64,000 bases of DNA from Diplonema papillatum (taxonomy: Eukaryota; Euglenozoa; Diplonemea; Diplonemida; Diplonemidae): assembly GCA_030068145.1 (NCBI GenBank), contig JAPJBO010000077.1:372001-436000 (forward strand), in the 5' to 3' direction. Positions within the stretch are counted from its first letter, which is position 1. Each line of letters begins with the position of its first letter. The position numbers and the translations under genes were made by a program. The notes beneath the pieces were generated by a model. It saw nothing but the letters and a program-made list of their open reading frames with translations, did not search any database and had not been told where the DNA came from. Of the stretch, positions 5,151 through 58,000 are shown in pieces.

Positions 5151-5457
5151 GAACCTCTATAATAATATCCGCGGGAACTCTTCCCGCGTCAACAAAGCAC
5201 GCGTTGCACAACGCCGGGCGCTAGCGTCCGGAAAGAGCAAACAAGCGTAGGTGACGTATATGAGACGAGAGGCACACTTTTGAGTTGCTGGCTAGCTTGA
5301 TATGTCATAAGTCAAAACGACGCCAGCTTCAAAGGTTTGTGGGCCGAGATTGACAATTTTGCGGCTGTCGTTTCTCCTTTGGAAGTTTTTTGTTCCGGCT
5401 GCTCAGCGAGCCTGCTTTTCGGTAGAGTAGCTGACCGGCAGCGCTTGCTCAATCACG
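5151..5457. other. 3' flank of the GH128 gene, no gene seen
   Basis: Homologous to the 3' flank of discoidin gene 1: the CGCGGGAA.TCTTCCCGCG block, ACAACGCCGGGCGCTAGCG, and AAAACG.CGCCAG..TCAAAGGT about 130 bases before the stop codon. No independent gene is visible. The shared blocks may include transcript ends, but no poly(A) signal can be assigned. Confidence 0.5.
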
Positions 5458-9270: not shown

Positions 9271-9289
9271 GTTTTGGGGCTTCTTTCTT

Positions 9290-9316
9290 TTGGTATATGG
9301 GCGTGCAGATTGGCTG
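9290..9316 (-). promoter_or_regulatory. CCAAT plus TATA-like promoter of the GH128 gene
   Basis: Minus-strand CCAAT (9309-9313), GCACGCCCAT, then ATATACC (TATA core 9294-9298), lying 24-28 bases before the ATG at 9270. The same block precedes both small discoidin genes and the broken copy ending at 10208. Confidence 0.5.
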
Positions 9317-9424
9317 TCAGGTTCATCGGAGTCAAGAGGTTGCTGGGTACGGTTCCCGCACACAGACTAGCAAATTGCATGACTAGTGCGCCAGCTGAGT
9401 CTTCTTCTCATAGGATTATATAGA

Positions 9425-19930: not shown

Positions 19931-20250
19931 ACAGGGGTTCTTCCCGCGTCCACAAGATATGTACCCGCAGCCACAGTGCGAGCCAAAAGATTCCCGTGGC
20001 AGCTTGAAATAGCCACGCCGAGCTGCAAACGTGCCCCTTTTGGTGATACGTAACGAAAGCTTGGCATAGTGTGGATAAAGATTGGCTCAGCAACGGCCCC
20101 GCCAGAGGCAAGCTTGCTTGATTGTGTCGGCCCCTCGTCCCTACCACTAAAAGGCTGCGACATGCATTGCACCACGCCAAGCGCTGCATCAAGCCTGCTT
20201 TCCACTAAAGCAGCTGACCGGCAGCCCCGCGCTTACTCCACCCACGCGCG

Positions 20251-21168
20251 CTAGTACATTTCGATTTCCCACAGAGAGTAGCCGTACCTCGTCTTGCGAG
20301 TCTTGCCAAGGAAACGGACGTAACGCGCCTGGGGGCGACTGAGCAGCTCGATCGTGGCAACGCCACCGTCACCATCCGCTTCAGAAAAGACAGTCGTCCA
20401 AGCAACAGCGTCGTCTGAGACTTGCACGTGGTACGCTGTCGCGTAAGCAGTCTCGAAGTAAAGCACAACTCTGGACACAGTCATTGAAGAGCCGAGGTCG
20501 ACGTAAATCCATTCGTCCCCGTCGGTGTGGGCGCTGGACCACCGAGTGCCCATGTCACCATCAACCGCATATTCAGCAGCAAGCCGCCATTGACCCTCCA
20601 TTGATGACGCAACAGCAGGTCGGTTCGCCGCCAAGTTACGTGGTGGTGCAACCGTTGGACCTGACGTGGAGGCGGCAAACACATCGAAACTGAACAGAGA
20701 GTAACCGTAGCCGATGCCCCTGGTGTTACCGAACATGGCCACATATCTGCCCTCCGTCCCAGCAGGTAGGTTGAGTTCATCAACGCCTCCGATAGAGCCA
20801 GTCACAAGAAGTGAAGTTGTCCACGTTGACGCATCGTTGGAGACACGGATATCGTACGAATATCCGTACGCGGTTTCCCAACTGAGGGCCACGCGCTCAA
20901 GTCTCTTAATGGAGCCCACGTCCACGTAAATCCATTCGTCGTCATTGAAGAAGCTGCCCCAGCGCGTGCCAGAGTTCCCGTCGCAAACATTCGCGGCGAC
21001 GAACGGACCTTCGCTCGACGAAGCGACTGCTGTGCATGCAAGTGCTGCACTTGAAGTCACCGGGGGTGGCGTTGAAGGGGGTGCTGTCGGAGGTGGGAGC
21101 GTGGCTTCGCAAAACGACGCGACGGCCCACAAGAGCGCGAAGGCGCCGACGGTGCGTGAAGGGGACAT
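20251..21168 (-). CDS. Secreted protein with two discoidin (F5/8 type C) domains, copy 2
   Basis: 305 residues: signal peptide (FALLWAVASFCEA), Pro/Thr linker, two F5/8 type C domains with the same motifs as the copy at 1041-1958. The two genes sit exactly 19,210 bases apart with no insertion or deletion. By eye the DNA is identical over the last 850 or so coding bases. All three protein differences lie at the N-terminus (residues 13, 15 and 25, in or next to the signal peptide), and the DNA differences cluster in the first 80 bases and the promoter. Expected role as for copy 1: a secreted glycan- or lipid-binding protein. Homogenisation by gene conversion or a recent copy event could explain the pattern. 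An assembly artefact is less likely because the flanks differ. Confidence 0.85.
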   Translation of the reverse strand: MSPSRTVGAFALLWAVASFCEATLPPPTAPPSTPPPVTSSAALACTAVASSSEGPFVAANVCDGNSGTRWGSFFNDDEWIYVDVGSIKRLERVALSWETAYGYSYDIRVSNDASTWTTSLLVTGSIGGVDELNLPAGTEGRYVAMFGNTRGIGYGYSLFSFDVFAASTSGPTVAPPRNLAANRPAVASSMEGQWRLAAEYAVDGDMGTRWSSAHTDGDEWIYVDLGSSMTVSRVVLYFETAYATAYHVQVSDDAVAWTTVFSEADGDGGVATIELLSRPQARYVRFLGKTRKTRYGYSLWEIEMY

Positions 21169-21179
21169 CTTGGGCTCTT

Positions 21180-21210
21180 TTAGTATATATGGGCGTACAG
21201 ATTGGCTGTC
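21180..21210 (-). promoter_or_regulatory. CCAAT plus TATA-like promoter of discoidin gene 2
   Basis: Minus-strand CCAAT (21201-21205), GTACGCCCAT and TATATAC (21184-21190), only 16-22 bases before the ATG at 21168. This is the best TATA match of the three family promoters. Confidence 0.5.
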
Positions 21211-21239
21211 AGGAAGTTTTACTGAGTCAAGAGGTTGCT

Positions 21240-22440
21240 GATTCGAGAGAAAAAGAAACGACTGCTTGATCTTTAGTATCTGCGATGGGAATATTTGGGT
21301 CGCGCACTGCCACTCAAGTCGTCATGCCCGTGGCCCAGGAGTACCGTCGAACAGGCGGAAACTTTGCCCCTTGCAAGCTTCCCCCGGTACACTTCCGATC
21401 CATCCTCGTGTGGCCAGCCGGAACCAACTGCCGTCTCGCGCCTGTTGTGCTGCCTACAACAAGAATGTTGCGCAATAGCAGATGTGGTAGTTGTCGTCTT
21501 GCCCTCGGTAGTAAAACCGGGTACTTGCATTCAAACGAATCGAGCGCGCGGTATCATGAAACTGTCAAAGTCGAAACAGCATTCGAACGAAGGTGCTGTG
21601 AACAAATGGATAAATGTTGATTCATTGTTGAACCGGGTAAAACCTGGGACACCCCCCAAAATGGGGCTGGGTGTCCCAGGTTTTTGGCATTTCCGGGGTT
21701 TGCGACTTTGCGTACTTTGCAGAACATCGCGACCCTGGTGCTTGCCCGCGCCTGTGTTGGGGTGCTCAATACTCAGCTCGACCCCTAGATGCCGCTGTCA
21801 TAGGAGGCTGCAGGACCACCACTGGTGCAGTCACACAGGAGACGACCTGGGGGTTTCCCAGGTTTTACCCGGTCTGTCGTTTACCCGTTCCAGCATTAGT
21901 CCAGTTCAACACTATTCCACTTACGGTAGCCCAGTTGCCATGGTCGACGAGAGACTCTGAACCCTCAGAGTTTCAAACCCGATTTTCACTCTGAAACAAG
22001 GGTCTGTAAGGCTGTGCTCCGTCCACAAAACAGGCGTCCAGCTGGGCTAAATTTAGTCATCCAATGTTTTTTGGCTTTTACGTCGCAAATCAGTCGCACC
22101 AGCCACAGAGACTTCGCGGCATGTCTTTCTTCTGAGCTGAAGCGTACGTTGAGCACAAGAGGAAACGGCTTCCCGACGTAAGAGACCTTCCGTGGCCAAG
22201 AGCCGATAACAACAATGGATACCCAGGAAGATGAGCATACGAAGGAGGGGCCACAGTAAGAGAAGGGTGTGGTGGACGAGAAGGACAAACAAAAAAAGAT
22301 CTCCTTTCTTCGTGACAACAATGGTCCGCGCCTTGCGCACCACGCCCTTCAGCAGCCTGGTAGGTACCTCTCTCTATGGATTGTGCGGTTGTGGCTGAGC
22401 CGGTCCGTCCACCATTGCGCAATGGACTTTATCCGGTAGT
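21240..22440. repeat. Gene-flank repeats B and C, third copy
   Basis: 21240-21510 matches B (ATCTGCGATGG.AATTTGGGTCG; TGCTGCCTACAACAAGAATG) and 22080-22440 matches C (ACGTTGAGCACAAGAGGAAACGGCT; GATACCCAGGAAGATGAGCAT). The A part is missing; the order before it agrees with the other copies. Confidence 0.6.
21633..21872. mobile_element. 240-bp MITE-like inverted-repeat element
   Basis: The left end CCGGGTAAAACCTGGGACAC mirrors the right end, which reads GTTTCCCAGGTTTTACCCGG. A second inverted copy of the same words (GGTGTCCCAGGTTTT) lies at 21677-21692, so the left end also folds on itself. There is no coding capacity. It is inserted between the B and C flank repeats. Confidence 0.6.
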
Positions 22441-30900: not shown

Positions 30901-33697
30901 CCGGGGTAAAACCATAAAACCATCGGTCGTGTTGGTGTGATCGAGAACGGCCAGCACCAGGGCTGTGTTCGTCCAGGTGACTGTCCGCTATTCTGCGACG
31001 AGGGGCACGTATGTAAGCCGGCGTCTATCCCACGGCGGTACCGCTGAACTTTGAAGTTGGAATGCACACGATCCGCAGCGATGGCCTGCATTAGCCACTT
31101 GGAGACTACCTCTTCGATCATTGTGGCCGTGCTTCAGGCGTTCAGCCCGTTTGGAGTTCCAGACCGGTTCCCGTACACTTCCCCATCTTCGATGGCAGAC
31201 ACTCTATTCGCTGAACGATAGTCTCCCCCCGGTGCTCGATCGGATTGTCTGTGGTTCTATGGAAGTTGATACCTGAGGGCGGCTTGAGGTTTTGAATCCT
31301 ATCCGCGAAGTGGAGGGTGCCGGATGTTTCGTTGTAGCTGCTGTCAGCCGGGGCTATGTTGGCGATGAGGAGCGTCCGCGACTGTCCGGAGATGAAGGCG
31401 GACTTCAGGATGCGCGTCAAGCGGCTTTCGCGGAAGGGAATGTGCTTCGAGTTGACCACGATGGCGTTCACCACCTTGCCGAGGGACGTCAAGCTCTTGT
31501 TGACGGCGACGGCTTCCTGCAGGACGGCGCCCTGCGCGCCGCTCTTCTTTGCGCGCTCAGACCCCGCCAGATCGACCATCGTCAGCGTCGACTTCGCGAT
31601 CGGAAACGCGTCTTCGTTGCACGCGTCGGGGAACGGGACCGAGTGCTTGTCCGCCCCCGACGGCTTGCGCATCGACATGCGCTCGTTCCGCCCGCCGGGG
31701 GCACCGAGGGGCGACGTGACGCCGCCGGGTTGGAACCCGGCCTGCGCGTACTGCTTCGCCAGCAGCGCCTCGATGTCCGGCGGGTTGGGGTTCCGCGCCG
31801 TCTTCCGCTGCTGGTACAAGTCGACCATAAACAGTGCGTGCGACCGGCTCGATGTGTCGTTCATGAGGGTGGGTGCCACGGACCGGTTGGCTATGGCGAC
31901 GTTGAACGCGTGGTTGACGTCCGCCTTGTCCGATATGATAAGCATCGTCGGCCGCATCACAACGACGTCGTCGCCGACTTCCTTCAGAGATAAGACCTGA
32001 GAGCGACGGTTCGAAATTGTTTCTGGCGCGGATGACTTCTTTTAGGATCGGGGGGGATTGCAAGAACGTGCTTGGAATGGGTATGTGCTCAACACCGCAC
32101 TGGTCCCGTCCGCGCCGTGTTTCGGTACTTTAAGCCACGGACACATAAGGCGGACCATCATCAGCGTGGAACCTGAGTGTCTGCAGACAGGACTGCGGTG
32201 TGAGTCTGGTTTGTCAGGCGGCTGTTCGTAGCTCGTCACAGCCAGGACCACCCGTGCTACTAGAGCACAGGCGAATCCGTCACGGGGAGAAGGCTCCTAC
32301 AACCGTGTCTGAGCAATCAGTTAAAAAACTCAGGGCACTCGCCCTGATTGTGACTGCGACTCGCTAGGCAGCACTGACTTGTCTTCTTTTTACGGTGGCA
32401 ATCTGCGAAGTAAACTCCGCAGAGCACAGTGGACATGGGGTTGCCGTGTGCAGCACCAATGGTTGAAGTACCAAAAGGAAAAGAGTGCGAGGAAGTAATC
32501 CTGCGTGCTGAGGGCAGCAAGTCGCGTTACGCGAAGTACCCTACTGGAATGGGGGGATTGCAAGAACGTGCTTGGAATGGGTATGTGCTCAACACCGCAC
32601 TGGTCCCGTCCGCGCCGTGTTTCGGTCCTTTAAGCCACGGACACATAAGGCGGACCATCATCAGCGTGGAACCTGAGTGTCTGCAGACAGGACTGCGGTG
32701 TGAGTCTGGTGCGGATGACTTCTTTTAGGATCGGGGGGGGGGGGTCAACCTCTAGAACTGGAAGGACCAAGTACTTACGTACGCCGCTCACCCGCTTCGG
32801 TCGTCGGATCTTTAGGACGATACGACAGTAGTTGTCCAGGTGGTTGGGGGTTCTTCTTCCCCAAGCAGAAAATCGCAAGAGAATGGTCCCGTCGCAGCGC
32901 TGGGGCATTTTTGCCATGCTTTCATTTCTTCGTGTGCGGGTGAGAGTTTCGCTTGAAGCTCTTGGCCTTCAAAGGAGTGACAAAGTTTTAGTTTTGCTCT
33001 TTTTACGTGTTCGTTGTCGGCAACTTGTATTGTGTTTACGGCGCCACTCTAAAAAGAAACGGGGGAGACTGCGTAAAATTTATGGCGCTTTCTCTTGTTT
33101 GTGCGCACTAGCGGGGCTCACCTGCGTAGGTAAGTCTCATGTAGTTCCCTGCCAGCTTCCAACTTTTAGGCCCAACAATGCATTGTTAACACAAGAAAAA
33201 GGGAGGGGGACCTGCTTGTTGTTGAGCAAGTCCTTCAGCTGCTCGTTGTAGATTTCGATGATCGAGAGGGCGATGACGAGGTGGTGAGTTTCTTTGCAGG
33301 TGTCCCTGTGCGCGAGCAGGTCGAAGAGGACGCGCAAAAAGATGCCCGAATCGTCGTCCAGCATGCCGTCGGCCTGGAGCCCGGTGCCGAGCAAGGTGTA
33401 CGTCTTCCCACTCCCCGTCTGGCCGTATGTGAGAATTACGTTATCGACACCTTCCAGGGTCGACTGGGTCATGTCGGAGGCCACTTTGTAGACTTCTTGT
33501 TGTGAGTCTTCTTCGTCCAACACGTAGTCGAAGCAGAACGCGGTCTGCTCCTTCAGCCGCACCGGGTTGACGCACACGCAAACGTTGGAGTCCGCCTTGT
33601 TAACGGTTGCCATCTCGTACTTTTCCTTGCTCCCCAGCTTCGGGCGGATGCGCACCGCGACCGTGACCTTCTTCCGATCCTCATCTCGGCCCTCCAT
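27951..33697 (-). CDS. Kinesin motor protein (five exons)
   Basis: Exons, minus strand: 33697-33212, 31996-31273, 30520-30006, 29607-29533 and 28628-27951. All introns are GT-AG and the phases match (0, 1, 0, 0), giving 825 residues. The motor domain spans about 10-400: VAVRIRP (13-19), P-loop GQTGSGKTYT (92-101), switch I NDTSSRSH (208-215), switch II VDLAGSER (303-310), then NKSLTSLGKV and IPFRESRLTRILK; it ends TLHFADRIQNLK. About 55-60 extra, Pro/Gly-rich residues (roughly 230-290) lie between switch I and switch II. Residues 405-600 are charged coiled-coil sequence (dimerising stalk); the remainder is a tail of unknown fold. Family knowledge: ATP-driven movement along microtubules. The N-terminal motor suggests plus-end direction; the kinesin family is not resolved. 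The 3' end is less sure: a strong alternative donor, GTGAGA, lies about 45 bases before the stop. Confidence 0.9.
32028..32738. repeat. Recent duplication of repeat F inside kinesin intron 1
   Basis: 32047-32209 and 32551-32710 are copies of the same 160-base sequence (GGATTGCAAGAACGTGCTTGG ... GACTGCGGTGTGAGTCTGG) differing at one position that I can see (GGTACTTTAAG against GGTCCTTTAAG). A 26-base word, GCGGATGACTTCTTTTAGGA plus TCGGGG, lies before the first copy (32028) and after the second (32710). More diverged F copies lie at 48515-48665 and, inverted, near 22960-23050. The duplication sits just upstream of the intron 1 acceptor. Confidence 0.75.
33085..33200. repeat. Repeat G in kinesin intron 1
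   Basis: Shares GTTTGTGCGCACTAGCGG, CACCTG...GGT(A/G)AGT, TGCCA.CT.C.AA.TTTTAG and CAACAATGCATTGTTAACACAA with 13100-13225. The palindromic AATGCATT followed by GTTAAC is conserved. Nature unknown. Confidence 0.5.
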
Positions 33698-33919
33698 CGA
33701 TACCCGACCCCCTTCACCCCAACCGCGAGTGCTGGCGCTGGGACCGACAAGCCCCGGCGAGCCCGCTGTGCGAGGGGGTGTCTTGCTGCCTCGCTGCGCG
33801 ATCGATCGTTCCCCGGTTTCTTATTTGTTTTCTTTTTTTTTTTTTCTCTGGTGTGAACAGATTCAAATTTTTCCGGGTTTTGTGCCGGGTTCTTGCCGGG
33901 TGTGGGTGCTTAGGTTTCG

Positions 33920-34352
33920 CCGGGTTTGTGCCAAATATTACTGGGGTCGAGGGTGCGGATCGCACCATCTTTCGTCTTGAAGACTTGGTATTGTGTGGCC
34001 TTATTCGCGCAGGGAACACCGGACAAACCCCTACGCCGAACACGGGGGTTTCACCAGGTTTGTGCCGGGGTCGAGGGTGCGGATCGCACCATCTTTCGTC
34101 TTGAAGACTTGGTATTGTGTGGCCTTATTCGCGCAGACAAACCCCTACGCCGAACACGGGGGTTTCACCGGGTTTGTGCCGGGGTCGAGGGTGCGGATCA
34201 CATCATCTTTCGTCTTGAAGACTTGGTATTGTGTGGCCTTATTCGCGCAGGGAACACCGGACAAACCCCTACGCCGAACACGGGGGTTTCACCGGGTTTT
34301 GTGCCGGGGTCGAGGGTGCGGATCACATCATCTTTCGTCTTGAAGACTTGGT
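33920..34352. repeat. 126-bp minisatellite upstream of the kinesin gene
   Basis: About three and a half head-to-tail units, each containing GGGGTCGAGGGTGCGGATC, CATCTTTCGTCTTGAAGACTTGG and TTGTGTGGCCTTATTCGCGC then CCTACGCCGAACACGGGGGT. The second unit has a 12-base deletion (GGGAACACCGGA lost). A further partial unit lies at 34507-34570 beyond the rRNA-like fragment. The array begins about 220 bases upstream of the kinesin ATG. Confidence 0.85.
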
Positions 34353-34427
34353 ATGGGGCAGCGAAGAGGAATAGCCTCGACACGTACTTAGTACGTTAGA
34401 AGCAATGGACGATAACTAAACCTGTCA

Positions 34428-34508
34428 ATGAACACAATTGGTGGACAAGTCTGGTGCCCGCACCCGCGGGAATTCCAGCACCAATAGCGTATACTAATGC
34501 TGCTGCTA
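34428..34508 (+). other. Fragment resembling the 530-loop region of SSU (18S) rRNA
   Basis: Reads ACACAATTGG, then ACAAGTCTGGTGCCCGCACC, CGCGG, AATTCCAGCACCAATAGCGT and ATACTAATGCTGCTGC. The eukaryotic SSU rRNA has AATTGGAGGGCAAGTCTGGT, GCCAGCAGCCGCGGTAATTCCAGC and CCAATAGCGTATATTAA here. About 80 bases match with scattered changes in otherwise invariant positions; no other rRNA part was noticed nearby. It is not a functional gene. It interrupts the 126-bp minisatellite. Confidence 0.65.
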
Positions 34509-38550: not shown

Positions 38551-41500
38551 TCAGCGGTACTCGGGGGTATATCTGCGCGGCACGGATGGTGTTGTGGCGG
38601 GAACGCATACCTCGAAGGGCACTGTCGAGTGCAGCCTGGGCGTGCCGGCCGCGGGGCCGGCGCTCGACGTTGCGTGGGAGAAGCGCCGGATGGTGACCTC
38701 CGGGGCCTTGCCGCCGAACTGCTGGCCGTACGAGGTGCGGCCGTCGAACTTGGCGGTGGTCGAGACGGTCAGCGAGTTCGACCGGCGGCTCATCGGCTGC
38801 CGCGCCGGCGACCGGCCGCCGCCGGTCCGCGCGATCGAGTCGCTGGTCCGCCGCCGCGACGACGCGAAGTCGTCTGCGTACGTCGTCGTGCCCTCGAACG
38901 GCACCACCCCGCGGCTCACCGACGCCGCCACCGACGACCGCCGGCTGCTGCGGTTCACGCTGACGCGCACAGACGTGTGCGTGCCCACACGCCGCTGCGA
39001 CTGGTCTCGGCTTAGACGCCGGGTCGACGGGTCTGCATCGGAGATCCGGCGCTGCGGAGTCGATTCGAACGCCCTGCTCCTGCTCTCGCTGTCCCGGCGG
39101 CGCGAAAGCTTGTCGTCGACGACTCTGCGGTGCGAGCCGGCCGCGCCGACGGGCAGCGTCGCGCCCAGCGGCGAGCCCCCCGCCGCCGGCATCTGCGGGA
39201 ACGCCGTGTACTCCCGCTCCGCCGAGAACGACCGGACCGCGAAGTCCTTCGACTTGTGCGCGGCGGCGGGCACCGCGTCGCCGCGGCGGCGGGTCGGCGA
39301 GACCTGCCGGCTCTCCGCCGCCAGCTGCGCGTCGACGTGCTTCTGGATCACCTTGTCCAGCACCGCCGACCGGCCATCCGCGTACGCGGAGCCATACGTC
39401 GTTTCCCCGTAGAACGGCGCGTTTCCCCACGCGAGTTCTTGGATGGGGGTGCGGCCGGGGGTTCCGTCTGCGCGGCTGTGCTTGTCCGTGTATTGCTCCG
39501 AGTATGCGGTCGCGCCGCCGAACGGCCGCGAAGGGAAGCCCGCGGCCGCCGGCTTTGAAGACGGGCGGCGCGCCTGTTTTTTGGCTTCGTAGTCGCCCTG
39601 GTACGTGGTCACCGCCTCGAACCGACTCTCGCTCACGGTCGTCACCGAGCTCCGCCGCCCCCTGCCGCTGCGCTCGGCCCGCTTCGGCGAGAACTCCTTG
39701 TGGTACAGGGTGTCCGCGTCGAACGGGCGGGAGGACGCCGGGGTCGACAGGCGGCGCCTCGCCGAAGCCGCGCGGGCCAGCTCCTTCTCGACGAAGTCCT
39801 TCTGGTACGTCGTCTCGCCGTCGAAGGCGGCGGCGGCGGGGGCGTGGTGCCGCTCGCGCTTGGGGCGGGCGCGGGCGGCCTCCTTCGCGGTGAAGTCGGC
39901 GCCGTACGTGCTCTCGGCCGAGAACGCGGCGGTGGCCGCGGGGCCGGACGCCCGGCGCTGCGAGTCGCGCCGCTCGGCCCGCTTCGGCGAGTACTCGGCT
40001 TGGTACGACGTCACCGCGTCGAACGGCGCACTGGCCGCAGCCGGCGCCCGGGTTCTTTCCGAATCCCGCCTGCTCCCTTCCTTCGCGACGAACTCGGCCG
40101 CGTACGTACTCTCCCCAGCGAATGGGACGGACGGTGCCGGGTTCCTGTTCCTCTGCTGCGACGTGCGCCGCTCCGTTCTCTTCGGGGAGTATTCGGCCTG
40201 GTACGAGGTGACGCCTTCGAAAGGCGCACTCTGCAGAGCTTCCTGTCGTGCGCGCCCTGACTCCCGGCGGCCGGCTTCCTTCGGGATGAAGTCCATCGCG
40301 TAGGTGCTCTCCCCGGTGAACGGGACGGACGGCACCGGGTCGCGGTGGCGGTGCTGCGACGTTTGCCGCTCGGCGCGCTTCGGCGAGTACTCGGCCTGGT
40401 ACGACGTGACGCCTTCGAACGGCGCCGAGAGCACCGGTCGCGGGCGGCTGCGCGCGGTCGACTGCCGGCCGCCGTCCTTCGCGACGAAGTCGGCGGCGTA
40501 CGTGCTGTCCGCCGTGAACGGCACGGAAGGCATCGGGTCGCGGTGCCGGTGCTGCGACGCTTGTCGCTCGGCGCGCTTCGGCGAGTACTCGGCCTGGTAC
40601 GAGGTCACTGCTTCGAAGGGCACGCTTTGCAGAGGTTCCTGCCGCGTGCGCCCCGATTCCCTGCGGCCGGCTTCCTTCGGGATAAAGTCCATCGCGTAGG
40701 TGCTCTCCCCGGTGAACGGGACGGACGGCATCGGGTCGCGGTGGCGGTGCTGCGACGTTTGTCGCTCGGCACGCTTCGGCGAGTACTCGGCCTGGTACGA
40801 GGTCACCGCTTCGAAAGGCACGCTTTGCGGCGCTTCCTGCCGTGTGCGGCCTGATTCCCGGCGGCCTGCTTCCTTCGGGATGAAGTCCATCGCGTACGTG
40901 CTCTCCCCCGTGAACGGCACGGTGGGGGCAAGCTCCTGCTGGGCGCGTTGGGCAGCTCGTTCGGCGCGCTTCGGCGAATATTCGGCCTGGTACGACGTGA
41001 CGCCGTCGAAGGGGATGTGCTGAGGCGTTTCCGGCCGCGCCCGGACGCTCGCGGCGCGGCCTCCCTCCTTCGGGATGAAGTCCTGCGCGTACGTGCTTTC
41101 CGCTGTGAACGGGATCGTGGGCATCGGCTCATGCGCCGCCCTCGAAGAGGCTGCTTTGTCGGCCCGCTTGGGCGAGTACTCCGCCTGGTAAGACGTCATG
41201 CTGTCAAAAGGGACACGCACCGGGGTATCTCTGCGTGCGTGCATCAACTCCGGGCGGCCGCCGTCCTTCGGGATGAAGTCCATTGCATACGTACTCTCTC
41301 CTGTGAACGGCATGGTGGGTGCAAGCTCCTGCTGGGCGCGTTGGGCAGCTCTTTCAGCGCGTTTCGGTGAGTATTCCGCCTGGTACGAGGTCATCCCGTC
41401 GAATGGTACGTGCACCGGCGTCCCGGCCTTTCGCTGTGCTGTATCGGGACGTCCGCCTTCTTTCGGGATGAAGTCCTGCGCGTATGTACTCTCCCCCGTG

Positions 41501-44500
41501 AACGGCATCGTAGGAGCAAGCTCTTGCGGGGCACGTTGGGCAGCTCTTTCAGCGCGTTTTGGTGAGTATTCCGCCTGGTACGAGGTCATCCCATCAAATG
41601 GTACGTGCACCGGCGTCCCTGCCTTTCGCTGTGCTGTTTCGGGACGGCCGCCTTCTTTTGGGATGAAGTCCTGCGCGTACGTGCTTTCCCCTGTGAACGG
41701 CATAGTGGGTGCAAGCTCCTGTGGGGCACGTTGAGCAGCTCTTTCGGCACGCTTCGGGGAGTATTCCGCCTGGTACGAGGTCATCCCGTCGAATGGTACG
41801 TGCACCGGTGTCCCTGCCTTTCGCTGTGCTGTATCGGGACGACCGCCTTTTTTCGGGATGAAGTCCTGCGCGTACGTGCTTTCGCCTGTGAATGGCATGG
41901 TTGGTGCGAGCTCTTGCGGGGCACGTTGGGCAGCCCTCTCAGCGCGCTTCGGGGAGTATTCCGCCTGGTACGAGGTCATCCCGTCAAATGGTACGTGCAC
42001 CGGCGTTCCCGCCTTTCGCTGTGCTGTATCGGGACGACCGCCTTCTTTCGGGATGAAGTCCTGCGCGTATGTACTCTCCCCCGTGAACGGCATCGTCGGT
42101 GCAAGCTCTTGCGGGGCACGTTGGGCAGCTCTTTCAGCGCGTTTTGGTGAGTATTCCACCTGGTACGAGGTCATCCCGTCGAATGGTACGTGCACCGGTG
42201 TCCCTGCCTTTCGCTGTGCTGTATCGGGACGGCCGCCTTCTTTTGGGATGAAGTCCTGCGCGTACGTGCTTTCGCCTGTGAACGGCATGGTGGGTGCAAG
42301 CTCCTGTGGGGCACGTTGAGCAGCTCTTTCGGCGCGCTTCGGGGAGTATTCCGCCTGGTACGAGGTCATCCCGTCAAATGGTACGTGCACCGGCGTTCCG
42401 GCCTTTCGCTGTGCTGTATCGGGACGTCCGCCTTCTTTCGGGATGAAGTCCATTGCGTATGTACTCTCCCCCGTGAACGGCATCGTCGGCGCAAGCTCGT
42501 GTGGGGCACGTTGGGCAGCTCTTTCAGCGCGTTTCGGTGAGTATTCCGCCTGGTACGAGGTCATCCCGTCGAATGGTACGTGCACCGGTGTCCCTGCCTT
42601 TCGCTGTGCTGTGTCGGGACGGCCGCCTTCTTTTGGGATGAAGTCCTGCGCGTACGTGCTTTCGCCTGTGAATGGCATGGTGGGTGCAGGCTCCTGTGGG
42701 GCACGTTGAGCAGCTCTTTCGGCGCGTTTCGGGGAGTATTCCATCTGGTACGAGGTCATTCCGTCGAATGGTACATGAACCGGTGTTCCAGCCTTTCGCT
42801 GTGCAGCATCGGGACGGCCGCCTTCTTTTGGGATGAAGTCCATTGCGTACGTGCTTTCGCCTGTGAACGGCACGGTGGGTGCAAGCTCTTGCGGGGCACG
42901 TTGGGCAGCCCTTTCAGCGCGCTTCGGGGAGTATTCTGCCTGGTACGAGGTCATCCCATCGAATGGTACGTGCACCGGCGTCCCCGCCTTTCGCTGTGCT
43001 GCATCGGGACGCCCGCCTTCTTTCGGGATGAAGTCCATCGCGTACGTACTCTCTCCTGTGAATGGCATCATCGGCGCAAGCTCCTGCGGTGCGCGTTGGG
43101 AGGCTCTTTCAGCGCGTTTTGGTGAGTATTCCGCCTGGTACGAGGTCATCCCATCGAATGGTACGTGCACCGGTGTCCCTGCCTTTCGCTGTGCTGCGTT
43201 GGGACGACCGCCTTCTTTTGGGATGAAGTCCATCGCGTACGTACTCTCCCCCGTGAACGGCATCGTTGGCGCAAGCTCGTGCGGCGCTCTCTGCGCGGCC
43301 CGTTCTGCTCGTTTGGGAGAGTACTCAGCTTGGTAGGAAGTCATCCCCTCGAAGGGCACCGGCGGCGGCGACTGCGCGTGGCCGTGCGCCAGCTCCGGGC
43401 GGCCGCCTTCCTTCGGGACGAACTCCGAAGCGTAGGTGCTCTCGCCGGCGAATTTAAGCGTGGGCACCGGCTCGTGCTGGGCGCGCGCGGCGTGCCTTTC
43501 GGCGCGCTTCGGCGAGTACTCCGCCTGGTACGAAGTCATCCCGTCGAACGGGACGTGCACCGGGGTCGTCTGCCTGCGCTGCGCGGTATCCGCGCGCCCG
43601 CCGTCCTTCGGGATGAAGTCGGTGGCGTACGTGCTTTCTCCCGCGAACCTCGTCGTGGGGAGGGCGTCATGCTGGAGCCGCGGCTCGTGCCGCTCGGCGC
43701 GCTTGGGCGAGTACTCCGCCTGGTACGACGTCATGCCTTCGAACGGCACGTTCGGCGGCGCGTCCAACCCGCGGTGGGCTGTGTCCGGGCGGCCGCCTTC
43801 CTTGGCGACGAACTCCGAAGCGTAGGTGCTCTCCCCGGCGAACTTGGTCGTGGGCAGCGGGTCATGCTGCGCCCGCAGCGCGTGCCTTTCGGCGCGTTTC
43901 GGGGAGTATTCGACCTGGTACGACGTTGCGCCGTCGAACGGGACGTGGACGGGCGCCGCCGCCGCCCGCGTCGAGTGGTCGGGACGCCCGCCTTCCTTCG
44001 GGATGAAGTCCATCGCGTACGTACTCTCCCCCGTGAACGGCACCGCCGGCGCGAGCTCGTGCGGCGCTCTATGCGCGGCCCGTTCGGCTCGCTTGGGAGA
44101 GTACTCGGCTTGGTAGGACGTCATCCCCTCGAACGGCGCCGGGGGCGACGACTGCGCGTGGCCGTGCGCCAGCTCCGGGCGGCCGCCTTCCTTCGGGACG
44201 AACTCCGAAGCGTAGGTGCTCTCCCCGGCGAACTTGGTCGTGGGCAGCGGGTCGTGCTGCGCGCGCGGCGCGTGCCGCTCGGCCCGCTTCGGCGAGTATT
44301 CGACCTGGTACGACGTCGCGCCGTCGAAGGCGACGTGCGCCGGAGGGTCGAGCGCCCGCCTCCCGGGCTCCGGGCGGCCGCCCTCCTTCGCGACGAACTC
44401 GGCGGCGTACGTGCTCTCCGCAGAGAATTGCGTGGTCGGTAGGGGGCCGGCGGACTTTCGGTGTGTCTCCGCGCGCTCCGCGCGCTTCGGCGGGTACTCG

Positions 44501-45858
44501 ACTTGGTACGACGTCGCGCCGTCGAACGGGACGCGCGCCGCCGGCTCGCTGCGGCGGGTACCCAGATCGGGCCGGCCGCCGTCCTTCGGGATGAACTCCG
44601 CAGCGTACGTGCTCTCCGCGTCGAACCGGGACGTTGGTCCCGGCTCGCGGGCGGGCCGCGCCGCCGGCCGCTCGGCACGCTTCGGCGAGTACTCAGCCTG
44701 GTACGCGGTCGTGCCGTCGAACGGCACGTGGGCCGGCGTCCCCAGCCGCAGCGGCGTGGCGTCTGGCCGCGCGCCTTCCTTCGGCACGTACTCCGCCGCG
44801 TACGTGCTCTCCGCGTCGAACCGGGACGTTGGCCCCGGCGCCGCGGCGCCGCGGGGTGCGGCCGGGCGCTCGGACTGCTTCGGCGGGTACTCGGCCTGGT
44901 ACGACGTGGTGCCGTCGAACGGCGCCTGCGCCGCCGGAGGGGCGCGCGACCGGCGCGGTGACACGTCCGGGCGGTCGGCTTCCTTCGCGAAGTACTCCGC
45001 CGCGTACGAAGTCTCCGCGGCGAACGGGACGGTCTGGGCGGCGGCGGCGCGCGGCTGGGCGCCAGCCGGGCGCTCCGCTTTTTTGGGCGGGTACTCCCTC
45101 TGGTACGAGGTCTCCGCATCGAACGGCACCTCCGGTGCGGCAGCTCGGGGCAAGCCGGTCGTCTCCGGGCGGCTGGTGGCAGCCTGCTTGGGCGTGTATT
45201 CGGCTTGGTACGACGTGGCCGAGTCGAAGGGGGCCTGCGGGTACGTGGTCCCGGAGCCGCGGGCTGTGCGGCTGGGGTATGCGTCAGCGTCCGCCGCGAC
45301 GTACTCGGCGGTGTACGTGCTGGCCGCGTCGAAGGGCGGCGACGGGTGGATTTTGCCGAGCGGCGCGGTGCGGGGGGTCGGCCGGTCGACGCGCTTCGGC
45401 GGGTACTCGATCTGGTACGAAGTTTCGCTCGAGAACGGGGCGGGTACCCCGGGGGGTCCGGACGCCGGGGGGTCGGCGCGGGAAGGCCGCCGCTCTCCGG
45501 CGGCGGGGGGTGCGTAGTCGTAGTCCGAGTGGTACGTGCTCTCGGCTTGGAACGGGTTCGGGGGCGCGGCTTGGGCTTGCCTGTTGGTTCTCGGGTCGTC
45601 GGCGCTTTGCCGACGCTCCGACTGCTTGGCCGGGTACTCTTTTTGGTAGTTCGTGGCCGCGTCGAACGGCTGCGAGTCCGGGTTGGAGTGCCGCGGCGCG
45701 CTGCCGGTGTGCGAGCGGGGGACCTGCTTCGGCGGGTACTCCTTCTGGTAGTTCGTCGTGTGCCCGGCGGCCGGCCGCTGCGGCTGCTGCTGCTGCTGCC
45801 GCTTGCCGGCCGTCGTCGTCACGTTCCCGTCCGTCGTGAACCGCGTGGTGCGCGACAT
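38551..45858 (-). CDS. Giant MAP6/SAXO-like axonemal microtubule protein
   Basis: One exon of 2,435 residues. The frame extends 71 codons further upstream, but the ATG at 45858 (MSRTTRFTTDG) fits better because the upstream part looks like UTR. After a Gln-rich N-terminus (KRQQQQQPQ) come about 60 modules of 32-33 residues alternating between TSYQ(A/V)EYSPKRAER and ESTYA.(D/E)F(I/V)PKEGGRP types; two make a 65-residue unit. About ten units near 41.3-43.3 kb are almost identical in DNA (195-bp repeat). The last 450 residues are less regular and Ser/Arg-rich, ending RRYTPEYR. Family knowledge: the recurring (T/S)xYxxE/DF/Y core resembles the Mn modules of MAP6/STOP and SAXO proteins, which bind and stabilise ciliary or centriolar microtubules. 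Known SAXO proteins are much shorter, so the size is remarkable. Probable role: lattice binding along the axoneme. Alternative: another coiled or filamentous cytoskeletal repeat protein. Confidence 0.75.
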   Translation of the reverse strand: MSRTTRFTTDGNVTTTAGKRQQQQQPQRPAAGHTTNYQKEYPPKQVPRSHTGSAPRHSNPDSQPFDAATNYQKEYPAKQSERRQSADDPRTNRQAQAAPPNPFQAESTYHSDYDYAPPAAGERRPSRADPPASGPPGVPAPFSSETSYQIEYPPKRVDRPTPRTAPLGKIHPSPPFDAASTYTAEYVAADADAYPSRTARGSGTTYPQAPFDSATSYQAEYTPKQAATSRPETTGLPRAAAPEVPFDAETSYQREYPPKKAERPAGAQPRAAAAQTVPFAAETSYAAEYFAKEADRPDVSPRRSRAPPAAQAPFDGTTSYQAEYPPKQSERPAAPRGAAAPGPTSRFDAESTYAAEYVPKEGARPDATPLRLGTPAHVPFDGTTAYQAEYSPKRAERPAARPAREPGPTSRFDAESTYAAEFIPKDGGRPDLGTRRSEPAARVPFDGATSYQVEYPPKRAERAETHRKSAGPLPTTQFSAESTYAAEFVAKEGGRPEPGRRALDPPAHVAFDGATSYQVEYSPKRAERHAPRAQHDPLPTTKFAGESTYASEFVPKEGGRPELAHGHAQSSPPAPFEGMTSYQAEYSPKRAERAAHRAPHELAPAVPFTGESTYAMDFIPKEGGRPDHSTRAAAAPVHVPFDGATSYQVEYSPKRAERHALRAQHDPLPTTKFAGESTYASEFVAKEGGRPDTAHRGLDAPPNVPFEGMTSYQAEYSPKRAERHEPRLQHDALPTTRFAGESTYATDFIPKDGGRADTAQRRQTTPVHVPFDGMTSYQAEYSPKRAERHAARAQHEPVPTLKFAGESTYASEFVPKEGGRPELAHGHAQSPPPVPFEGMTSYQAEYSPKRAERAAQRAPHELAPTMPFTGESTYAMDFIPKEGGRPNAAQRKAGTPVHVPFDGMTSYQAEYSPKRAERASQRAPQELAPMMPFTGESTYAMDFIPKEGGRPDAAQRKAGTPVHVPFDGMTSYQAEYSPKRAERAAQRAPQELAPTVPFTGESTYAMDFIPKEGGRPDAAQRKAGTPVHVPFDGMTSYQMEYSPKRAERAAQRAPQEPAPTMPFTGESTYAQDFIPKEGGRPDTAQRKAGTPVHVPFDGMTSYQAEYSPKRAERAAQRAPHELAPTMPFTGESTYAMDFIPKEGGRPDTAQRKAGTPVHVPFDGMTSYQAEYSPKRAERAAQRAPQELAPTMPFTGESTYAQDFIPKEGGRPDTAQRKAGTPVHVPFDGMTSYQVEYSPKRAERAAQRAPQELAPTMPFTGESTYAQDFIPKEGGRPDTAQRKAGTPVHVPFDGMTSYQAEYSPKRAERAAQRAPQELAPTMPFTGESTYAQDFIPKKGGRPDTAQRKAGTPVHVPFDGMTSYQAEYSPKRAERAAQRAPQELAPTMPFTGESTYAQDFIPKEGGRPETAQRKAGTPVHVPFDGMTSYQAEYSPKRAERAAQRAPQELAPTMPFTGESTYAQDFIPKEGGRPDTAQRKAGTPVHVPFDGMTSYQAEYSPKRAERAAQRAQQELAPTMPFTGESTYAMDFIPKDGGRPELMHARRDTPVRVPFDSMTSYQAEYSPKRADKAASSRAAHEPMPTIPFTAESTYAQDFIPKEGGRAASVRARPETPQHIPFDGVTSYQAEYSPKRAERAAQRAQQELAPTVPFTGESTYAMDFIPKEAGRRESGRTRQEAPQSVPFEAVTSYQAEYSPKRAERQTSQHRHRDPMPSVPFTGESTYAMDFIPKEAGRRESGRTRQEPLQSVPFEAVTSYQAEYSPKRAERQASQHRHRDPMPSVPFTADSTYAADFVAKDGGRQSTARSRPRPVLSAPFEGVTSYQAEYSPKRAERQTSQHRHRDPVPSVPFTGESTYAMDFIPKEAGRRESGRARQEALQSAPFEGVTSYQAEYSPKRTERRTSQQRNRNPAPSVPFAGESTYAAEFVAKEGSRRDSERTRAPAAASAPFDAVTSYQAEYSPKRAERRDSQRRASGPAATAAFSAESTYGADFTAKEAARARPKRERHHAPAAAAFDGETTYQKDFVEKELARAASARRRLSTPASSRPFDADTLYHKEFSPKRAERSGRGRRSSVTTVSESRFEAVTTYQGDYEAKKQARRPSSKPAAAGFPSRPFGGATAYSEQYTDKHSRADGTPGRTPIQELAWGNAPFYGETTYGSAYADGRSAVLDKVIQKHVDAQLAAESRQVSPTRRRGDAVPAAAHKSKDFAVRSFSAEREYTAFPQMPAAGGSPLGATLPVGAAGSHRRVVDDKLSRRRDSESRSRAFESTPQRRISDADPSTRRLSRDQSQRRVGTHTSVRVSVNRSSRRSSVAASVSRGVVPFEGTTTYADDFASSRRRTSDSIARTGGGRSPARQPMSRRSNSLTVSTTAKFDGRTSYGQQFGGKAPEVTIRRFSHATSSAGPAAGTPRLHSTVPFEVCVPATTPSVPRRYTPEYR
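41390..43300 (-). repeat. 195-bp coding tandem repeat, homogenised core
   Basis: About ten units repeat every 195 bases (65 codons), with almost all differences at third positions, for example GTCATCCC(G/A)TC(G/A)AA(T/C)GGTACGTGCACCGG. Units outside this core are more diverged, at both ends of the gene. The pattern suggests expansion or conversion from the centre. Confidence 0.85.
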
Positions 45859-54050: not shown

Positions 54051-54466
54051 GACAAGTTTAGATATCATTCATTGCTTCTACGCTATGATTGTACAGGGGT
54101 CGCGTTCGACCGCATTCGCTTTGATTGGAATACAAAGCATCTGTGGCAAGAACGCCCCCCCCATGGGTCGAAATAAGCGGACGCCGAACGCCACCCCCAA
54201 GTATAGGTGTTCCTCCGGTGGCCCGCGCAGCGGCGATTTTTTGTTTTTTTTTGCGAGCGGGATTTGGGGCCAGGACCTTATGCAGCCCGTTTTTCCCTTC
54301 AGAATAGACACCAAACCGTTTTCTCTGGCGACTCTTAATACAGGGGGGGGTCCGGGGGGCACCGCCCCCCGGGAGACGGTACGGTATACTTTGAGCCTCA
54401 GCTGGCCCCCTCAGGCATCTTGTTAAGAACCATCCATCCATCCATCAGCCGGCTGACCCTGAATTT

Positions 54467-54946
54467 TCTAATGCTGGGTTTCGAGGTCGGAAAACCTATT
54501 TGGACAATTTCCCGAGGTGGGACAATTTTCTAATGCTGGGTTTCGAGGTCGGAAAACCTATTTGGACAATTTCCCGAGGTGGGACAATTTTCCAATGCTG
54601 GGTTTCTAGATCGGAAAACCTATTTGGACAATTTCCCGAGGTGGGACAATTTTCTAATGCTGGGTTTCGAGGTCGGAAAACCTATTTGGACAATTTCCCG
54701 AGGTGGGACAATTTTCTAATGCTGGGTTTCGAGGTCGGAAAACCTATTTGGACAATTTCCCGAGGTGGGACAATTTTCCAATGCTGGGTTTCTAGATCGG
54801 AAAACCTATTTGGACAATTTCCCGAGGTGGGACAATTTTCTAATGCTGGGTTTCGAGGTCGGAAAACCTATTTGGACAATTTCCCGAGGTGGGACAATTT
54901 TCTAATGCTGGGTTTCTAGATCGGAAAACCTATTTGGACAATTTTC
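54467..54946 (+). repeat. 62-bp minisatellite, array 1
   Basis: Nearly eight units of AATTTTC(T/C)AATGCTGGGTTTC(G/T)AG(G/A)TCGG, then AAAACCTATTTGGACAATTT and CCCGAGGTGGGAC. Every third unit (units 3 and 6) carries the CCAATG plus TCTAGA variants, making a 186-bp higher-order repeat that is open in one frame throughout. About 350 bases of unique sequence separate it from array 2. Confidence 0.9.
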
Positions 54947-55093: not shown

Positions 55094-58000
55094 AATTCAA
55101 GTTTTTCCATGTCTTCGCCGCTGCCGAATGCCGACAGGTGGGACTACAGGTTCCCTTCTGTGCTCCGCGAGGCCTGGACTCGATCCTTTGCCTATGAGCC
55201 ACCTTCCAAAAGGAAGTTCCGCGTGCGTGAAATGGAGTCTTTCTGCTCCACGTTATTCGGCACATGCGAAGAGGCCGTCACAGACAGGGCCCGCGCGGTA
55301 CTCGCCGTGGGACAATTTTCCAATGCTGGGTTTCTAGATCGGAAAACCTATTTGGACAATTTCCCGAGGTGGGACAATTTTCTAATGCTGGGTTTCGAGG
55401 TCGGAAAACTTATTTGGACAATTTCCCGCGGTGGGACAATTTTCTAATGCTGGGTTTCGAGGTCGGAAACCCTATTTGGACAATTTCCCGAGGTGGGACA
55501 ATTTTCCAATGCTGGGTTTCGAGGTCGGAAAACCTATTTGGACAATTTCCCGAGGTGGGACAATTTTCTAATGCTGGGTTTCGAGGTCGGAAAACCTATT
55601 TGGACAATTTCCCGAGGTGGGACAATTTTCTAATGCTGGGTTTCGAGGTCGGAAAACCTATTTGGACAATTTCCCGAGGTGGGACAATTTTCTAATGCTG
55701 GGTTTCGAGGTCGGAAAACCTATTTGGACAATTTCCCGAGGTGGGACAATTTTCTAATGCTGGGTTTCGAGGTCGGAAAACCTATTTGGACAATTTCCCG
55801 AGGTGGGACAATTTTCTAATGCTGGGTTTCGAGGTCGGAAAACCTATTTGGACAATTTCCCGAGGTGGGACAATTTTCTAATGCTGGGTTTCGAGGTCGG
55901 AAAACCTATTTGGACAATTTCCCGAGGTGGGACAATTTTCTAATGCTGGGTTTCGAGGTCGGAAAACCTATTTGGACAATTTCCCGAGGTGGGACAATTT
56001 TCTAATGCTGGGTTTCGAGGTCGGAAAACCTATTTGGACAATTTCCCGAGGTGGGACAATTTTCTAATGCTGGGTTTCGAGGTCGGAAAACCTATTTGGA
56101 CAATTTCCCGAGGTGGGACAATTTTCTAATGCTGGGTTTCGAGGTCGGAAAACCTATTTGGACAATTTCCCGAGGTGGGACAATTTTCCAATGCTGGGTT
56201 TCGAGGTCGGAAAACCTATTTGGACAATTTCCCGAGGTGGGACAATTTTCCAATGCTGGGTTTCGAGGTCGGAAAACCTATTTGGACAATTTCCCGAGGT
56301 GGGACAATTTTCTAATGCTGGGTTTCGAGGTCGGAAAACCTATTTGGACAATTTCCCGAGGTGGGACAATTTTCCAATGCTGGGTTTCGAGGTCGGAAAC
56401 CCTATTTGGACAATTTCCCGAGTTCGTTGTGGTTGACTCTTCTTCTCTTCTGAAGGGAGGCGACGAGGCCGTTGCTGCCCGTCTCCGGTTTGTTGACACC
56501 TCGTCACCCGATATGGTACGAGAAGTTTTTCTCGGGCTCGTCCCTACTTTCCGGATTTTTCGTGCGAGTACTTTGCTCCGCCGGATTTTTCGTGCGAGTA
56601 CTTTGCTCCGTCGTGAGTTGGCAAAGCTGATGAAAGGGACAGGGGTACAGCCGAGGAACGCTGATGGGAGTTGGCGAATTCGATGGCTTCCGAAATGGCA
56701 GAGGTCACTCGTGAAGGCTTCGGTCATGAGGCCGTGGTGGGTACGGATGTTCGAGACGAAACGGAGTGTTCTCAGACGCACGAAAAGTAAAACGACCAGG
56801 AAGGAAGCAACATCGTTACTGCCCGTTCTGAAGGATCCTCGGTTCGTCGAGAGTCTCCAGTATTTCTGCGACTTGTTTGCGATCCTGGCAGGTCCGCAGT
56901 TGAAGAGCCAGCTAAGTGTGGGCCACGGTGTCCACATTGAGGCTTCCATCGCTCTGGCGCAACAGCAGGTCTCGGCCATGACAACCAAACCTGGGATTCC
57001 CCGGAATCTGAAAGATTTGCACATGAAAGTCATCAACGTCCTTGTGCCCGCGAGCCTTTTTTCCCCCCATGTGCTGGCAGCGACCCAGCTCCTTTCTGCG
57101 GCAGTCCCGCCCCCGACGGCTAAAGAAACTTTCAAAAAGTGCACTGGTGGCGAGTCCGAGGATGAGGGATCCAAACCACTGGCGCAAGCTCAAGCTCCGA
57201 AACAAGCTAAGGTGTCCAAGCTTTCTACGGCAGTCCCGCCCCCGATGGAGAAAGAAACTCCCAAAAAGCGCTCTCCGAGGATGAGGGATCCACACCACTG
57301 GCGCAAGCTCCGAAACAAGCGAAGGTGTCCAAGCATTCCTTGGCCGACAACGCGGAGATCAGGAAAACGGCGTTCGGACCCTGTTTAGCCAACCTGCATC
57401 GGATGCTAGCCGTGCACCCGGTACTGCACTGCCTCCCGGATCACGGAGTCCTGTTGCGAAGGCGAAAATAAGCCCAGCTGCGTCGGGCAACGCACCCCCT
57501 GCAAAAAAACGTCGAAGTGAAGTAGCTCCTAAAGCATCGCCCCCGCCGAGTGGATCTGATGCGCAGACATGCCCGAAGCCCGCGCCGAAAAAACCCACAC
57601 CGAAGAAGACTCTGCAGGCTCAAGAAGGCGCATGGAGAACCATGTGCAAACTCGCGAGAGTCGACACGAGCTTCCGCAAGAAAGACCTGATGAACCAGTG
57701 GGAAGCAGTTCGTCAGAAAGCTGTCCTCAACGAGGGCAGCTATGAAAACTTCTGGTCCGCAACGGTTGCAGAACTCGAACGGACAGAAGAGAAGACAGGG
57801 ATTGCAGTCGCCACAAGCCGAGTTCTACAAGTGGCTCTGTGCTGTAGCTGCCCGAGCAGCTGTGGGATCGAGCGAGACTTTGGGTTGATGTGCGCTCGCT
57901 TGGATCCCGCGAGGATCGAAACGTCGCTGAAAGCAGTCAGCAACGAACTCTTTTTGGTTCGAAACGGACCGAACCCGGCAGAAGCAAGGGAGTTGCTTGC

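Follow-up and report, generated by a model that had tools for sequence, protein, structure and literature searches.

A giant Mn-repeat protein of Diplonema papillatum related to SAXO/MAP6/SPM1, with a repeat core apparently kept uniform mainly by purifying selection

The window, a stretch of 64,000 nucleotides, contained on its minus strand an ATG-to-stop open reading frame whose bounds, 38551..45858, were exactly those of the gene in the original prediction. The gene had been described as a single exon, which agreed with a frame uninterrupted over 2435 codons; however, an extra exon may lie upstream (there is a T-run followed by AG near 45960), and the frame stayed open upstream of the ATG to 46092. 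The predicted protein was about 267 kDa, with a pI of 9.4, a proline content of 11.3% and a composition rich in Ala, Pro, Arg, Thr and Ser. Residues 1801–2400 were strongly basic, and the only Cys in 2435 aa was near the C-terminus, with none at the N-terminus. The five other frames carried 11–45 stops each. The features of the gene were as follows.

38551..45858, minus strand: coding sequence, ATG at 45858 and stop at 38551, 7308 nt, 2435 aa
44926..45774, minus strand: modules 1–8, contiguous Mn modules of variable length (33–39 aa), without alternation
39730..44925, minus strand: modules 9–61, type A (xPFDGxTSYQxEYSPKRAER) and type B (xPFTGESTYAxDFIPKEGGR)
41410..43164, minus strand: constrained core, modules 27–44, nine A/B units, protein near-invariant including linkers
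39319..39729, minus strand: modules 62–65, degenerate, the end of the last module set arbitrarily at 34 residues
38554..39318, minus strand: C-terminal tail without Pfam matches, with two isolated Mn modules
38904-38803, minus strand: module 66, isolated, in the C-terminal tail
38754-38653, minus strand: module 67, isolated, in the C-terminal tail

Elsewhere in the window, a kinesin motor exon was found near the giant gene (33140-33820). Three similar stretches (977-2322, 5198-6293 and 20187-21507) had a DNA identity of 86–92%; F5/8 type C (discoidin) domains were encoded at 20254-21168, and 5198-6293 formed the final part of a minus-strand open frame of 1302 codons (5461-9366) that encoded a glycosyl hydrolase core, a PKD domain and a long PTAPP linker. 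At 34332-34487, a short fragment of eukaryotic SSU rRNA that looked degenerate on inspection adjoined a 114-bp tandem repeat (33943-34354). A 62-bp satellite occupied two blocks (54462-54944 and 55307-56422) with copies 96–98% alike, a homogeneity at the DNA level that is unlike the coding array.

About 60 Mn-like modules had been predicted, and the count by core pattern came to 67, 65 of them contiguous, compared to a mean of 0.8 and a maximum of 5 in 1000 shuffles and to zero in each of the other five frames. The published Mn syntax, [TS][TS]x4[YF] (PMC10973386), occurred 63 times in the protein (1000 shuffles: mean 5.7, maximum 12). The 64 spacings between modules 1–65 averaged 33.1 residues, with 84% of them being 32 or 33. 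The 53 consecutive modules 9–61 alternated strictly between type A and type B, all 52 spacings being 32 or 33 residues, and the A/B pair period was 65 residues, or 66 toward the C-terminal side. The alternation with a 65-residue period in the original prediction thus held for modules 9–61, but did not extend to modules 1–8 and 60–65, which showed no odd/even lag difference when analysed as blocks. Within the alternating region, identity over the first 20 module residues was 0.34–0.37 at odd lags and 0.76–0.98 at even lags (blocks 9–24, 27–44 and 47–60). The residues that tell the two types apart were kept in the flank modules 9–24 and 47–60, namely T (A) versus S (B) at position 7 (15/15 A, 15/15 B), Q versus A at position 10 (15/15 A, 14/15 B), Y versus F at position 13 (15/15 A, 14/15 B), and R versus E or D at position 17 (14/15 A, 15/15 B).

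Profile comparisons with Pfam and the PDB found Mn-module relatives, in agreement with the SAXO/MAP6-like character originally proposed. The whole protein matched Pfam PF05217 (SAXO1-2) with 118.5 bits (E 5.3e-34), far above the gathering cut-off of 26.5, and neither a reversed control nor a control in which one permutation was applied to every unit gave a SAXO match at E values up to 1. These controls drew unrelated Pfam matches (best E 7e-4 permuted, 9e-5 reversed), the reversed one (23.2 bits, E 9e-5) sitting at the own cut-off of that other family. Pieces of 260–265 aa scored 23.4 and 24.5 bits, under the SAXO1-2 cut-off, and 44.3 bits, over it. The lowest score, that of a 260-aa core piece, was close to that of the spurious reversed match, which indicates that the strong SAXO1-2 score depends on the long array. 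Since two of the three pieces were under the cut-off, it is the whole protein and the PDB comparison that carry the family case. In the PDB, a phmmer search (E up to 1) matched the Chlamydomonas flagellar-associated protein 8glv_zj (3e-21), SPM1 twice (1e-19 and 2e-19, the alignments covering SPM1 residues 143–318 only) and DMIP1/STOP (2e-7). A module profile built from 25 four-module segments and run against the PDB at E values up to 10 matched eight sequences, all eight being Mn/STOP or flagellar-associated chains: SPM1 (twice, 9e-26), DMIP1/STOP (8e-13), SAXO1 (2e-12), a STOP axonemal protein (2e-9), FAP363 (2e-9), and two further matches labelled only as flagellar-associated protein, one of them 8glv_zj (6e-25). 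On these comparisons, the giant protein is securely assigned to the Mn-module proteins related to SAXO/MAP6/SPM1.

Pfam PF22595 (CFAP107) was also matched, with 51.3 bits against a cut-off of 27, the best stretch covering only 25 of 169 positions. As two Mn units are present in CFAP107 (PMC10973386), this match shows the Mn unit and not membership. Matches to RTC_insert (over the cut-off, whole protein) and SspK (just under) were taken as chance, being short single stretches multiplied by repetition, with similar matches in the controls. No Pfam match was found in the N-terminal 100 aa or the C-terminal 255 aa. The protein shares with SAXO proteins a linear repetition of Mn-like modules (65 contiguous), a high proline content and a basic pI. 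Nevertheless, it is not a SAXO protein under the strict definition of PMC3280300, because the N-terminal cysteine-rich motif 1 is absent from the protein as predicted, the single cysteine being close to the C-terminus, as is the Cys-Pro motif of the last Mn module, modules 65–67 being without cysteine.

The 271-Mb assembly (2910 contigs), which was eukaryotic by gene content, contained three PF05217 matches, two in the giant gene and one in a second gene.

G000:C440:25904-26209 (L002:1033-2142), minus strand: second PF05217 gene, L002, found by profile search

L002 encoded an N-terminal WW domain, a cysteine cluster, CICEICECGRHHC, which resembled SAXO motif 1 when compared by eye, and a few Mn-like motifs, a combination that is unusual to our knowledge. 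No second giant array was found in the genome; a search with a 265-aa query at E values up to 0.01 gave at least 14 matches, of which 14 out of 14 fell in this gene. DM10 domains were matched 17 times, and at least two frames carried three of these domains each. With DM10-domain proteins and another SAXO gene encoded, the genome appears to possess the machinery of axonemal inner proteins. Short-peptide pattern scans of IMG/VR (two scans, 8 and 0 stretches) and of GTDB genome contigs (8 matches) yielded no confirmed relatives, these being non-eukaryotic collections searched with few peptides.

The middle units had been described as almost identical in DNA, a claim that failed for the core. Over its nine A/B units (eight adjacent pairs, 36 pairs in all), adjacent units had a protein identity of 92–98% and a DNA identity of only 86–91%, the best unit pair reached 97%, and exact stretches did not exceed 80 nt. 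The eight adjacent pairs had pS values of 0.34–0.53 and pN values of 0.01–0.05; pooled over the 36 pairs, dS was 0.48 and dN 0.025, giving a dN/dS of 0.05. Units 35 and 43 were separated by 20 synonymous differences and not a single nonsynonymous one, and synonymous variation was seen in 30 of the 54 degenerate codon columns of the core whose amino acid was invariant. At a similar pS (0.35–0.49), six neighbour pairs in the flanks had a pN of 0.16–0.23, and even the flank pair least diverged in protein (units 49 and 51) had a pN of 0.12 at a pS of 0.52. GC3 was 0.55–0.63 in the core units, 0.78–0.98 in the units of modules 9–24 and 47–60, and 0.66 and 0.68 in the border units 25–26 and 45–46, respectively.

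The contrast between core and flanks was found in both parts of the unit. The dN/dS of the Mn part was 0.03–0.06 in the core and 0.09–0.28 in the flanks, and that of the linker 0.06–0.07 and 0.5–1.0, with the flank values inflated because synonymous sites there were nearer saturation (pairs of unequal length were dropped, leaving 16 of 28, 28 of 28, 15 of 21 and 28 of 28 flank pairs). On non-overlapping pairs (8 of 8 in the core, and 11 of 14 in the flanks after three of unequal length were dropped), the ratio of nonsynonymous to synonymous changes was 6:36 for core linkers against 124:59 for flank linkers (Fisher P 3e-10), and 7:45 against 58:69 for the Mn parts (P 3e-5), these P values being approximate since units share history. 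As synonymous sites have diverged while nonsynonymous ones are nearly unchanged, the uniform core, linkers included, is maintained mainly by purifying selection, and the flank linkers drift nearly freely.

The original prediction had attributed the uniform core to ongoing unequal exchange, a cause that we regard as improbable. The best unit pair (35 and 41, 97% identical in DNA) does point to past duplication or conversion, and in polyubiquitin genes a slow form of concerted evolution may operate even where synonymous differences are numerous, its weight relative to purifying selection being debated (PMC10457151). Nevertheless, exact stretches above 80 nt were absent, the units 35 and 43 were separated by synonymous changes alone, the pooled dS was high next to dN, and flank pairs at similar pS had much higher pN than core pairs. 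Ongoing DNA homogenisation was rejected as the main cause of the uniformity on the ground of this synonymous divergence. The gene is a clear case in which selection keeps a repeat protein uniform while the repeat DNA diverges.

The same data bear on the integrity of the locus. Tandem arrays are often misassembled, so that an assembly artefact or a pseudogene has to be considered, but either is hardly credible here: the long frame is intact, selection on the core is strong as judged by its dN/dS, and the core units are told apart by synonymous differences, making collapse or spurious expansion less likely.

Past duplication was nonetheless visible. The core units fell into roughly two DNA sets (27, 33, 37 and 43 versus 29, 31, 35, 39 and 41, unit 39 being intermediate), which, with the 97% identity of the best pair, indicates duplication in blocks of units. 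Modules 1–65 shared no exact stretch longer than 80 nt, and the 20 longest exact repeats listed all lay at even lags, ranging from 4 to 16 modules. Distances among A modules correlated more strongly with those of the preceding B modules (Spearman 0.77) than with those of the following B modules (0.58), which suggests that the copied unit may have been the B-A pair. Block duplication therefore seems to have occurred, though not recently. Adjacent core units differed synonymously slightly more than expected from random orders (P 0.047 over every possible order of the nine units); we do not take this as a sign of selection for codon differences between neighbours, as block duplication explains this value equally well.

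These observations raise a second reading of the alternation, namely that it is a trace of two-module duplication and that both types bind every dimer alike. At a little under an even chance, it is a serious contender: the even lags of the 20 longest exact repeats listed, the A distances that follow the preceding B, the two DNA sets repeated as blocks, the lack of alternation in modules 1–8 and 60–65, and the lack of significant alternation in SPM1 all speak for it. Against it, the type-specific Mn residues were kept in both diverged flanks, where the linkers had a dN/dS of 0.5–1.0. Because these residues persist beside linkers evolving nearly freely, separate constraints seem to act on types A and B.

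Given its relatives, the giant Mn-repeat protein is most likely located within microtubules, probably those of the axoneme, running along one protofilament with one module of 32/33 residues per 8-nm dimer. In SPM1, FAP363 and SAXO proteins, Mn motifs are described as short helices at the intradimer interface, placed 8 nm apart along the length of the lumen (PMC8144581, PMC9564825), and SPM1 puts one repeat on each 8-nm tubulin dimer (PMC8144581). By analogy, the Mn helices of the giant protein would occupy the alpha/beta intradimer interfaces, with the linkers spanning from one dimer to the next. Since the modules have the spacing of SPM1 repeats (32/33 here, 32 in SPM1), the 65 contiguous modules could span about 520 nm, bracing the protofilament lengthwise, and a molecular ruler along tubulin dimers, as in the original prediction, is plausible. 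No Mn protein in the literature consulted is near this length, so that binding of all the modules in register is putative. Through the alternating types, neighbouring dimers would be marked A, B, A, B, which would create a 16-nm period readable by partners. The likeliest place for a partner to bind would be the 18-module core with its strongly selected linkers; TrxL1 is reported to pack on SPM1, and SPACA9 on the Mn motifs of SAXO, so that, by analogy, the constraint on the core linkers points to a partner.

Two other locations were weighed. The protein might line stable microtubules outside the axoneme, such as cortical bands or flagellar roots, in the manner of SPM1. The absence of the SAXO cysteine motif would fit this, as would the place of SPM1, from the subpellicular microtubules of Toxoplasma, among the closest solved relatives. 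We consider this location possible but unlikely, as the Chlamydomonas flagellar-associated protein 8glv_zj scored as well as SPM1 and the genome encodes proteins with DM10, an axonemal inner-protein domain (PMC10973386). Alternatively, the protein might be a disordered, MAP6-like stabiliser of the outer surface rather than a lumenal filament, to which its Ala/Pro/Arg/Thr/Ser-rich composition and the basic residues 1801–2400 would be suited. This is very unlikely, given that the solved Mn-motif relatives in the literature consulted are lumenal and that the regular 32/33 spacing fits lengthwise lumenal binding.

The boldest form of the lumenal reading, a true ruler in which a polypeptide of more than 0.5 micrometre imposes a 16-nm A/B register in the lumen and includes an 18-module zone (about 144 nm) of added selection in which a partner docks on every second dimer, is doubtful. 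A general 16-nm rule is without support, because two-module alternation in SPM1 was not significant (P 0.2). For SPM1, papers on Toxoplasma structures state that the similarity of its repeats obscures the true period and that the lumen might take its periodicity from a longer repeat (PMC12819142, PMC8144581); whether repeats in register set a periodicity beyond 8 nm has been raised as an open point (PMC8144581). With 53 alternating modules and apparently selected type-specific residues, the present protein makes that question testable.

Among known systems, the giant protein is close in design to SPM1 of Toxoplasma (PDB 7miz, 7tnq), with which it shares tandem Mn repeats, of 32 residues in SPM1 and 32/33 here, and a signature of PF, an S/T-rich turn, Y, E/D/Q, F/Y, and PK or AK. 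The aligned SPM1 stretch comprised five complete 32-aa repeats and one cut short; SPM1 has six repeats, and its homologues are stated to have 5–13 across species, compared to 65 contiguous modules here. SAXO1/2, TbSAXO and PfSAXO are likewise proline-rich and basic, with linear Mn modules and PF05217, but carry the N-terminal cysteine motif and the CP motif that are absent here. TbSAXO has six modules and PfSAXO and MmSaxo1 have 12 (PMC3280300), and human SAXO1/2 are given as having 10 or more. The few to a dozen modules originally ascribed to SAXO/MAP6 proteins are thus close to the published counts (5–13, human SAXO1/2 10 or more), and the giant protein is far above them. With 13 being the highest number stated in the literature consulted, apart from the "10 or more" for human SAXO1/2, it appears to be an extreme variant among Mn-repeat microtubule proteins, new in size, and eukaryotic relatives of similar size may exist. 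FAP363 of Chlamydomonas is similarly a Mn-repeat inner protein, in doublet microtubules; its chain and that of 8glv_zj have 286–391 aa and hence no giant array. MAP6/STOP is distinguished by palmitoylated N-terminal cysteines, whereas the predicted giant protein has no N-terminal cysteine, and by calmodulin-regulated Mn/Mc modules. In its evolution, the core array resembles polyubiquitin genes, whose coding units are near-identical in protein with diverged synonymous sites (PMC10457151), but the constraint here is found in the core only, while the flank linkers drift.
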